A stretch of 64,000 bases of DNA from an uncultured Clostridia bacterium. Lineage in GTDB: Bacteria; Bacillota; Clostridia; Oscillospirales; Ruminococcaceae. Each line of letters opens with the position of its first letter. Within the stretch, counting starts at the first letter, position 1. Both the position numbers and the translations under genes were made by a program. Where the stretch lies: the NCBI GenBank assembly GCA_945873955.1, contig CAMCFA010000008.1, forward strand, positions 1 through 64,000, in the 5' to 3' direction. This document shows, one piece after another, positions 37,941 through 41,263 of the stretch. Under the pieces are notes generated by a model that ran no database searches, was not told where the DNA came from, and saw only the letters and a program-made list of their open reading frames with translations.

Positions 37941-38284
37941 TAATCGTTAACAAAAACGAGGGTGAGAAGATACCCTACGAACAGAACGGAAATAAGCTGT
38001 GTTTTGACGATGACCTTTCTATCAACCTTGCCAAGCGCGAGGAAGATGACGCGGTACACATCGACATCTGCTTTGATGGTGACGGTGCGCTGGTAGTCGG
38101 AGCTGCGGCAGGCAGACGGTACGTTGCAGAGATCGACATACCCGCAAGGGAGTACATCGAAACCGAGGATGAAGCCGAAGAGGAAGAGCAGCGTAAAACG
38201 CGGCGCGAACCCGTCCCGCTGGACATGGACAAGGTAACACTCACACTGTGGGCAATCGGAAAGGAGAACGAAGATGAGCAGTAA
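37937..38284 (+). CDS. tail hypothetical protein
   Basis: ORF 115 aa, overlaps DGR target start. Confidence 0.6.
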   Translation: MIIVNKNEGEKIPYEQNGNKLCFDDDLSINLAKREEDDAVHIDICFDGDGALVVGAAAGRRYVAEIDIPAREYIETEDEAEEEEQRKTRREPVPLDMDKVTLTLWAIGKENEDEQ

Positions 38285-39380
38285 TTTCGACGTCGCAAAT
38301 ATTGCGCTACAGGCGGTATGCCCGAGCAACGAGCTTGTGTATGATGACAAGGGTATGCCCTCCGTCATGGTAAAGATACCGAAAATGACATGGGCGCAGC
38401 TTGGCGTAGGTGACTCTACCGAGGTATTCCCCGCATTCATCGTGAACGGACAAACCGTTGACGCACTGTATTTCCCTAAATACGAGAATATCGTACAGAA
38501 CAACAGAGGCTATTCCCTTCCTGCACAAGATCCGGCTGTTTACGTTACCCACGACCAGTCCATTGAATACAGCACCAACAAGGGTGCAGGCTGGCACAGC
38601 ATGACGCGTCTGGAGTGGTGCGTAATTGCGCTGTGGTGCCTGAAGAACGGCTTTCAGCCTAATGGCAATAACAACTTTGGTAAGGATATTTCCGAAAGCA
38701 CCTACAAGGCAATTCCGACCGTATTCAATGCGGATGGAATTCCTGCAAGAGTAGCAACAGGAACAGGTCCGCTTACATGGTACCATAACAATGCGCCGGA
38801 CGGCATTGCCGATCTCAACGGCAATGTATGGGAATGGACGCCCGGCATACGCCTTGTCTATGGTGAACTGCAAGTGCTGTCCCACGATGGCGTAACATTC
38901 GGCAACGACGCTGCCGATCCGGTCAACAGTCAGGGTGAAAATTCATCGCTGTGGCGTGCCATCGACGGCACCACCGGCGCACTTATCGTTCCCAATGGCA
39001 GCGGAACAACAGCAAACAGCTTGAAACTTGACTTTGTATCGTCCGCATGGAAATGGATCACAGGAACAATATCGAGCAAATCAGATAGTACCAGAGGAGC
39101 AGTTTTTGAAAACACGACAGTTGATTCCACTATATGTGCATCAGCACAGAGGATTCTCCAAGCTTTGTGTTTGTACAAGGCAAGTGATGTAACAGGAGCG
39201 TACAAGGAAGATATTTTCTGGGCAAACAACAGCGCAGCCGAACGGTGTTTCTTTGCCGGCGGCCACTGGACTGTTTCTGTGGGGGCTGGCGTTTTCGACG
39301 TCGACGGCTACGGCCCCCGTTCCGACTCGGGCGCCAACCTCGGCTTCCGCTCCGCTTTCTGTGTTCTGCCTACTGCGTGA
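38274..39380 (+). CDS. DGR variable (target) protein, C-type-lectin/FGE-sulfatase-like fold
   Basis: ADLNGNVWEWTPGIRL...CFFAGGHWTVSVGAGVFDVDGYGPRSDSGANLGFRSAFCVLPTA; C-terminal VR matches TR. Confidence 0.93.
   Translation: MSSNFDVANIALQAVCPSNELVYDDKGMPSVMVKIPKMTWAQLGVGDSTEVFPAFIVNGQTVDALYFPKYENIVQNNRGYSLPAQDPAVYVTHDQSIEYSTNKGAGWHSMTRLEWCVIALWCLKNGFQPNGNNNFGKDISESTYKAIPTVFNADGIPARVATGTGPLTWYHNNAPDGIADLNGNVWEWTPGIRLVYGELQVLSHDGVTFGNDAADPVNSQGENSSLWRAIDGTTGALIVPNGSGTTANSLKLDFVSSAWKWITGTISSKSDSTRGAVFENTTVDSTICASAQRILQALCLYKASDVTGAYKEDIFWANNSAAERCFFAGGHWTVSVGAGVFDVDGYGPRSDSGANLGFRSAFCVLPTA
39245..39358 (+). repeat. DGR variable repeat (VR)
   Basis: 114 bp, gap-free alignment to TR; 14 mismatches, all at TR adenines. 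Confidence 0.96.
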
Positions 39381-39391
39381 TGTGTTCTGAA

Positions 39392-39415
39392 CCGGCTCTG
39401 CGATAGCAGAGCCGG
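39392..39415. promoter_or_regulatory. DGR target hairpin downstream of VR
   Basis: CCGGCTCTGC-GATA-GCAGAGCCGG; 10-bp perfect stem with GRNA-type tetraloop. Confidence 0.8.
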
Positions 39416-39429
39416 AAAATCGAATTTTT

Positions 39430-39450
39430 AAATAACGTATTTCGTTATTT
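39430..39450. promoter_or_regulatory. dyad AAATAAC-N7-GTTATTT upstream of avd promoter
   Basis: AAATAAC GTATTTC GTTATTT; same arms and spacing at 44783-44803. Confidence 0.6.
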
Positions 39451-39462
39451 TATAACATTTTC

Positions 39463-39522: not shown

Positions 39523-39867
39523 GTGGCAGAGGAAATGAAGATCCTCCAGAAAGTCTTTGACATGATGGAGTATGGTTATCTCGCTCTAGCGCAATTCCCG
39601 AAATCTGAAAAGTTCGCTTTGGCGACAGACATAAAGCATTGCATGAACGTTATGCTTGAACGCTGCATTGAAGCGCAAAAAAAGTATTACAAGAAATCTA
39701 CTTTGCAGGAATTTGACGTTGAGAACACAAAGCTCAAGGCATACCTGCGGCTCTCTTTTAACCTTGGCTTTCTTCCTCCGAAAAAATACGAGATATGGAG
39801 CGCCAAGGTAGTAGAGATTGGAAAGATGCTTGGGGGTTGGCTGAAATCCGTCAACACCAACTCCTGA
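39523..39867 (+). CDS. avd: DGR accessory variability determinant (Avd) protein
   Basis: 114 aa helical; MMEYGYLALAQFPKSEKFALATDIKHCMNVMLERCIEAQKKYYKKSTLQEFDVENTKLKAYLRLSFNLGFLPPKKYEIWSAKVVEIGKMLGGW. Confidence 0.92.
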   Translation: MAEEMKILQKVFDMMEYGYLALAQFPKSEKFALATDIKHCMNVMLERCIEAQKKYYKKSTLQEFDVENTKLKAYLRLSFNLGFLPPKKYEIWSAKVVEIGKMLGGWLKSVNTNS

Positions 39868-39870
39868 CAT

Positions 39871-40071
39871 AAGGAACAAATCGTTGCGTGTTTCATTGCC
39901 GGCGGCAACTGGACTAATTCTGTGAGGGCTGGCGTTTTCAACGTCAACGGCAACAACCCCCGTTCCAACTCGAACGACAACCTCGGCTTCCGCTCCGCTT
40001 TACCCCCACGTCAGATATTGATCACCTACCGGGTATCACTCAGCACAAGGGTATAAAGGGATTTGTTCCTT
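39871..40071 (+). ncRNA. predicted DGR RNA core: TR enclosed by a 12-bp perfect inverted repeat
   Basis: AAGGAACAAATC (39871-39882) and GATTTGTTCCTT (40060-40071). Confidence 0.55.
39888..40001 (+). repeat. DGR template repeat (TR)
   Basis: 114 bp; 22 adenines, 14 of them substituted in VR; rich in AAC/AAT codons; 3' 21 bp identical to VR. Confidence 0.96.
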
Positions 40072-40153
40072 CGACTTGCTGAAAGGCAGGGAGAAAAAAG
40101 ATCTAGTTGCGTAAGCTGCGAACGCCGCTAAGCGTAACAAGGAGGCGCTGTGT

Positions 40154-41263
40154 ATGGATAAGCACGAACACGTTTTCGAGCGCTTTATTGAATTCGAGAA
40201 TTTGTATGACGGATATCTGGCAGCACGCAAATGTAAACGCTACCAGGAAGATGTGCTTTCCTACACCGCAAATCTGGAAGAAAATCTTATCAATGCACAG
40301 AACCACCTCATGTGGAAAACATACGAGGTGACTGGTATGCATGAATTCATCGAATACTATCCAAAGAAACGCATTATTACTGTAATGCCTTTTGAAAATC
40401 GTGTAGTCAACTGCGCGGCGTATAACGTCCTATGGCCGATATACAGCCGTTCTTTTTATGAGCATAGCTATGGTTCGATCAAATCACAAGGACCTATCAA
40501 GGCAGTGGAGCAGCTTCAATACTGGCTAAAGCTGGTTCGCAATAAGCCCGGGAAATGGTGGGTTTGTAAGATGGACATAGCTAAATTCTTTTTCCGAATA
40601 CCTTACGAGGTTCAGCTCGAAGCACTTGGAAAACCTCTCAACGATCCCGACATGATGTGGTTTCTTGAGAAAGCTATAAAATGCGACGGCCGCCCTTTTG
40701 GTCTGCCCGTTGACGCTACAAACGTAACCGAATGCGAACGTATCACGGGTATCGGTATGCAGGTAGGCAGTTTGATTTCTCAGCTTACCGGAAACGTAGT
40801 GATGACGGCAGCCGACCACTTCATAAAGCGTGAGCTTCGCGCACCATATTACATACGGTATATGGATGACATGATTTTTCTTGTTCCAAGCAAGGAACAG
40901 GCGCATGAGATATTAGGAAGATTTCAGATATTCCTCGAGGACAGGCTCGGACTAGTTCTCAACAATAAAACCTGTATTGTTCCATACGATTCCGGCATTG
41001 AATTTGTCGGAAAAGTAGTGTGGCCGGACAAGGTGCTTATGAGGAAATCCACCTCGCTGCACATGAAGCGTCATTTGAAATACATTATGGAACACTACTC
41101 AACAGGCGAGATCAGCCTTGATTATGCTCTTGCAACTATAAGAAGCTATCTTGGATATATGCGTCATTGCGATTGTATTGCGTTTCGGAAGAAGCTTCTC
41201 GATGACTTTGTGCTGGTTCGGCATTATGCCGAGGATCAACATAATAATTGCCCCGATGAATAG
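40154..41263 (+). CDS. DGR reverse transcriptase
   Basis: YIRYMDDMIFL active site; VGSLISQ matches the DGR-type (I/V/L)GxxxSQ motif. Confidence 0.96.
   Translation: MDKHEHVFERFIEFENLYDGYLAARKCKRYQEDVLSYTANLEENLINAQNHLMWKTYEVTGMHEFIEYYPKKRIITVMPFENRVVNCAAYNVLWPIYSRSFYEHSYGSIKSQGPIKAVEQLQYWLKLVRNKPGKWWVCKMDIAKFFFRIPYEVQLEALGKPLNDPDMMWFLEKAIKCDGRPFGLPVDATNVTECERITGIGMQVGSLISQLTGNVVMTAADHFIKRELRAPYYIRYMDDMIFLVPSKEQAHEILGRFQIFLEDRLGLVLNNKTCIVPYDSGIEFVGKVVWPDKVLMRKSTSLHMKRHLKYIMEHYSTGEISLDYALATIRSYLGYMRHCDCIAFRKKLLDDFVLVRHYAEDQHNNCPDE

Follow-up and report, generated by a model that had tools for sequence, protein, structure and literature searches.

Knowledge of the template RNA of DGRs comes mostly from the Bordetella phage BPP-1. 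A cryo-EM paper on the RNP of this phage probably already shows pairing between the RNA upstream and downstream of the template (TR). The BPP-1 element (Rfam RF03022, Phage_DGR; RT in PDB 8ub7-8ube) has the same order of target gene, avd, TR, spacer and reverse transcriptase (RT) gene as the locus described here. According to a recent study, bRT-Avd is recruited to a structure formed by the spacer, cDNA synthesis is primed in the TR 3' junction by an adenine inside the spacer, and it is terminated by a motif at the avd 3' end (PMC12875486). DGR targets carry a hairpin or cruciform with a 7-10 bp stem and a GRNA loop, which acts as DNA and has a role in retrohoming (PMC3240598). Other DGR loci match the Rfam RNAs RT-14 (RF02921), RT-18 (RF03021) or Phage_DGR.

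The window, a 64,000-nucleotide stretch of DNA from an uncultured Clostridia bacterium, contains a complete Avd-type DGR in the order target gene, avd, TR, spacer, RT, with the following features:

38274-39380, + strand: target gene, with a weak FGE-sulfatase match
39245-39358: VR, inside the target gene, paired with the TR by homology
39392-39415, + strand: hairpin 3' of the VR, a 10-bp GC-rich inverted repeat with a GATA loop, 33 nt past the VR
39523-39867, + strand: avd (Pfam PF22296 bAvd, E 5e-31)
39871-39882, + strand: 5' arm of the closing stem, AAGGAACAAATC, non-coding, with covariation
39888-40001, + strand: TR, 88% match to the VR, with 14 of 14 mismatches at TR adenines
39998-40002, + strand: P1 5' strand, the last TR bases, predicted to pair with 40054-40058 (49 loci)
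40020-40037, + strand: predicted P2 hairpin of the proximal spacer, covarying (RNAalifold columns 236-254)
40054-40058, + strand: P1 3' strand, adjoining the 3' arm, with an invariant AAGG at 40056-40059; candidate priming site
40060-40071, + strand: 3' arm of the closing stem, GATTTGTTCCTT, with covariation
39998-40137, + strand: match to the Rfam RT-14 RNA (39.2 bits, model positions 1-144 of 144)
40154-41263, + strand: DGR reverse transcriptase (Pfam PF00078, RVT_1, E 1.3e-18; PDB 8ub7 chain A, E 1e-29)

Consistent with an Avd-type DGR, a DGR-type RT adjoins the TR, avd lies upstream of the TR and the TR/VR mismatches are adenine-specific; the window RT is also related to BPP-1 brt by tblastn. 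The GRNA-loop hairpin expected after the VR is found at 39392-39415, where the loop reads GATA, and it fits the target-recognition DNA hairpin or cruciform of PMC3240598. That element is likewise an inverted repeat and has a function in retrohoming, but it is short-loop DNA in the target, whereas the stem described below is RNA around the template. Between the target gene and avd lies an AT-rich imperfect inverted repeat (39425-39455), perhaps a terminator or regulatory element; a similar sequence, AAATAACGTATTTCGTTATTTTT, occupies the corresponding position in the locus L001.

The original prediction was that a 12-bp inverted repeat brackets the TR and that its arms would pair in the transcript, closing off the TR and the proximal spacer as one RNA domain. 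The arms, AAGGAACAAATC at 39871-39882 and GATTTGTTCCTT at 40060-40071, are indeed perfectly complementary. Because homology to the VR sets the TR at 39888-40001, the 5' arm ends 5 nt upstream of the TR and the 3' arm starts 59 nt beyond its end at 40001, in agreement with the predicted positions. The 5' arm starts 3 nt after the avd stop codon, the loop between the arms is 177 nt, and 82 nt separate the end of the 3' arm from the RT start. A repeat of at least 12 bp between the 60 nt before the TR and the spacer arose in 2 of 20,000 dinucleotide shuffles. Perfect 12-bp repeats with 100-400-nt loops occur three times in the whole window, this one included; thus, the single sequence can only suggest a stem, and the comparative data decide. 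Single-sequence folding was uninformative, as the overall stability of the 293-nt RNA was unremarkable (z -0.62); its minimum-energy fold nevertheless contains the stem. We dropped a reading of the repeat as a transcription terminator, given the lack of a T-run and the length of the loop.

DGR loci were collected from viral contigs and genome contigs using the window RT, and BPP-1 and other phages were added. TRs were placed independently, by a VR match with mismatches at TR adenines; in the same-genus loci L315 and L316 this search gave no usable TR. The window's clade comprised 49 non-redundant loci, including BalMu-1, FP_Lagaffe and L081, a second, divergent DGR of the same host genome (contig C1, RT at 173269-174285, RT 41% identical), and these were aligned by MAFFT, blind to pairing. 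A search restricted to perfect repeats had found the stem in the window alone, seemingly unconserved, a result that was reversed by allowing G.U pairs and aligning the relatives.

In the 49-locus alignment, 94.1% of cells in the window's 12 column pairs were paired, compared with 74.2% after shuffling, and sliding by 1-3 columns lowered pairing to 31-57% (at most 57.3%). There were 136 double-change cells (36.8 shuffled), 10 of the 12 pairs had changes on both sides, and the covariation score was 0.679, as against 0.277 shuffled and no more than 0.188 slid. The alignment held 44 distinct 5' arms and 45 distinct 3' arms, with at least 10 pairs kept in 48 of the 49 loci. RNAalifold found the stem unaided, as the main structure, and stem pairs accounted for 8 of the top 12 column pairs by APC-corrected mutual information. 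When the arms of each locus were compared with arms swapped from its nearest relative, its own were better in 34 loci, equal in 12 and worse in 3. Individual pairs behaved differently: one, which is never broken, is C-G 27 times, U-A 21 times and U-G once among the loci; the fifth is unpaired in 20 of 48 loci; and the fourth is G.U in 35 of 48 (A1 columns 27/295), the window itself having G-C there. Across the clade, G.U cells (63) exceeded A.C cells (12), as expected if the + strand RNA folds, an argument that is only moderate because A.C cells are not zero. A same-genus relative from another collection (L314) carries the arms AAGGTGCAAATC/GATTTGTATCTT, the same as L089, and forms 12 of 12 pairs, one of which differs from the window's in both bases. 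The closing stem of L081, GGGGACAAGCT/AGCTTGTTTCC, differs in its letters from that of the window. One seeming exception, L061, was a misaligned locus in which the stem sits further upstream. Covariation had been proposed as the check on the stem, and by RNAalifold, pair counts and permutation, used in place of R-scape, this check was strongly passed in the window's clade. As the two halves change together and stay paired in dozens of related elements, these data strongly argue that the inverted repeat is a real, conserved stem in the RNA, with the template enclosed in its loop.

The stem also holds its position relative to the TR. Between its 5' arm and the TR/VR homology lie 0-23 nt (median 5); the arm overlaps that homology in 0 of 48 loci and has no copy beside the VR (2.9 of 12 positions identical, 48 loci). 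For 43 of 48 loci, the distance from the TR end to the start of the 3' arm is 57-66 nt; the remainder, with longer proximal spacers, have 72-83 nt. Inside the loop, P1 (39998-40002 with 40054-40058) is paired in 87.3% of cells and has two pairs with double changes among the 49 loci. The motif AAGG directly 5' of the 3' arm (40056-40059; A1 columns 283-286) is invariant or nearly so in these loci, and together with the preceding bases it pairs with the last TR bases as P1, making this P1 3' strand a candidate priming site. AAGG is also present in an AT-rich DGR class. The stem therefore closes a domain made up of the TR, P1 and P2.

Equivalent stems were found in other DGR classes. Over 80 loci of all classes, the helix score of a locus's own flanks was 24.2, compared with 17.25 (sd 0.35) for permuted flanks (0 of 20,000 permutations). 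For the RT-18 class (51 loci), own arms scored 26.9 versus 16.5 permuted (0 of 5,000), and the de novo helix had 13 pairs and was 90.1% paired; for the BPP-1 class (40 loci), the scores were 20.9 and 18.7 (0 of 5,000), with a de novo helix that was 96.6% paired in 33 loci. As their fourth pair, 43 of 50 RT-18-class loci and 31 of 33 BPP-1-class loci have G.U, and this wobble, conserved across three DGR classes, is possibly a protein contact. The RT-18 helix likewise joins upstream and downstream flanks and has AGGG at its outer end, but its 3' arm is mostly found 15-29 nt beyond the TR, just before the start of the RT-18 model, unlike that of the window.

A covarying helix between the pre-TR region and the spacer, as expected of a BPP-1-like core DGR RNA, is present in the window's clade, as it is in the BPP-1 class. 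One strand of the helix in BPP-1 comes from the end of avd, within the final ~20 nt ahead of the TR (L082:1495-1506); the other is spacer sequence (L082:1705-1717), and the outer end reads A-U, G-C, G-C, G.U. The BPP-1 spacer belongs to a different Rfam family from that of the window, and the BPP-1 5' arm lies inside avd in a bulged helix, whereas the window 5' arm is non-coding, follows avd and forms a perfect helix. Since the BPP-1 arm lies in avd codons, part of the conservation there may be coding. Pairing of 1495-1506 with 1679-1690, the best in the single sequence, was dropped, as the class alignment supports 1705-1717. The 3' arm at 1705-1717 begins two bases after adenine 1703. If the BPP-1 spacer is numbered from 1648, this adenine is A56, reportedly the priming adenine.

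In a further class with AT-rich flanks (L114, L115, L118-L120, L122-L124, L130, L132-L134, L138 and L146), the VR follows the RT start at a distance of ~1.3 kb downstream. Those members that were inspected seem to carry a closing stem ~46-54 nt before the TR, and in a few loci the putative stems compensate each other's changes (AAGAGAAAAATTT/GAATTTTTCTCTT; AAGGGAAAAGGTT/AACCTTTCTCTTT). The crAssphage LMMB locus (L087) has a strong long helix, AAGGTTATATTTCTTAAGATGAT / ATTATTTTGGGAAGTATAACCTT, around its TR and may represent another DGR class carrying the same kind of stem. Hankyphage p00 (L085) showed no clear or convincing equivalent stem, and Vibrio VHML (L084) had weak stems at best.

These comparisons bear on the RT-14 model. 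The window spacer matches RT-14 over its full length but, at 39.2 bits, falls below the gathering score of 48.1, whereas relatives, among them L089 (52.4 bits), pass the threshold; judged by sequence, the window spacer would thus be a divergent RT-14 relative rather than a formal member. The RT-14 model begins at the TR end and includes the 3' arm as a conserved stretch drawn unpaired, without its covarying partner, which sits upstream of the TR. The idea of a closing stem that isolates the TR and proximal spacer is supported by covariation in the window's clade and by the equivalents in the RT-18 and BPP-1 classes. The further suggestion that the stem delimits the functional DGR RNA holds in part: the stem closes the TR domain, but on the 3' side the RNA continues to ~40137, as judged from the RT-14 match.

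We consider it very likely that the repeat forms a helix within the DGR template RNA and so closes the TR/P1/P2 domain, with inferred roles at the start and stop of cDNA synthesis. The helix would form in the avd-TR-RT transcript when the segment immediately preceding the TR pairs with one ~60 nt inside the spacer. The closed domain would contain the TR, which is the copied template; P1, in which spacer bases adjoining the 3' arm on its 5' side pair with the 3' end of the TR; and P2. By holding the template loop within the RNP, the helix may let RT-Avd keep the priming strand next to the 3' end of the TR as cDNA synthesis begins, bringing the P1 template-primer duplex into place. It may also form a block 5' of the TR, so that RT stops on reaching the TR 5' end and no sequence from outside the TR is transferred to the VR. 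The regions named in BPP-1 for termination (the avd end) and priming (the spacer) are the two that the helix joins there. The alignments establish the helix and its held position relative to the TR; from these we infer the roles in priming and termination, of which priming is plausible from the geometry.

Chance complementarity within an otherwise conserved DGR RNA has virtually no likelihood left: 12-bp repeats with loops of similar size do occur twice more in the window, and the RNA on its own shows no unusual stability, but compensatory change recurs at the same columns in 49 relatives, is lost on a one-column slide and is matched by the same result in two further DGR classes. An inverted repeat acting at the DNA level, as a cruciform or protein site, has a precedent in the DGR hairpin after the VR, which does act as DNA (PMC3240598). 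We regard it as highly improbable here in view of the conserved G.U pair in 35 of 48 loci, the overall excess of G.U over A.C cells, the 177-nt loop and the recovery of the stem by RNAalifold using RNA energies. Only slightly more credible is a stem that regulates expression, by transcript protection or by translational coupling of avd and RT, while taking no direct part in reverse transcription. The arms do lie in short gaps between avd, TR and RT within one transcript unit, the 3' arm 82 nt before RT; yet the spacing is held to the TR ends and not to the RT start, which lies ~94-350 nt after the TR across classes, and the 5' arm is within the end of avd in the BPP-1 class but after avd in the window.

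A stem that is real but purely a block, stopping RT at the TR 5' end with no part in priming or RNP assembly, is unlikely, although it deserves more weight than these three. It would account for a 5' arm that lies a median of 5 nt outside the TR/VR homology and is never copied beside the VR, and in BPP-1 termination maps to the avd 3' end (PMC12875486). However, a mere block would not need a 3' arm whose distance from the TR is fixed (57-66 nt for 43 of the 48 loci) and which adjoins P1 and the invariant AAGG. We therefore favour the helix that closes the TR/P1/P2 domain and may act at both ends of cDNA synthesis.

The locus is a DGR with an RNA near RT-14, and because a BPP-1 counterpart has probably been seen in the cryo-EM RNP, the stem is a well-supported addition to a known kind rather than a new system. 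New here is the demonstration, from covariation, of a closing stem conserved across DGR classes that differ in their spacer RNAs, a stem that also completes the RT-14 model. More tentatively, but as a serious possibility, a helix whose outer end is shared (5' A-G-G-G opposite U-C-C-U 3', with a conserved G.U as the fourth pair) may close most DGR templates across RT-14, RT-18, Phage_DGR and perhaps the AT-rich class; it could be an ancestral part of the DGR RNP, hitherto not annotated as one element, that sets where cDNA synthesis begins and where it ends.

The stem is backed by covariation in more than 100 gut and environmental loci. It supplies the missing partner of a conserved RT-14 segment and helps to locate TR boundaries. 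Those annotating DGR template RNAs, or replacing the TR for directed evolution, should keep both flanks, including ~20-50 nt upstream. With this stem, the start and stop of DGR cDNA synthesis become testable outside BPP-1.
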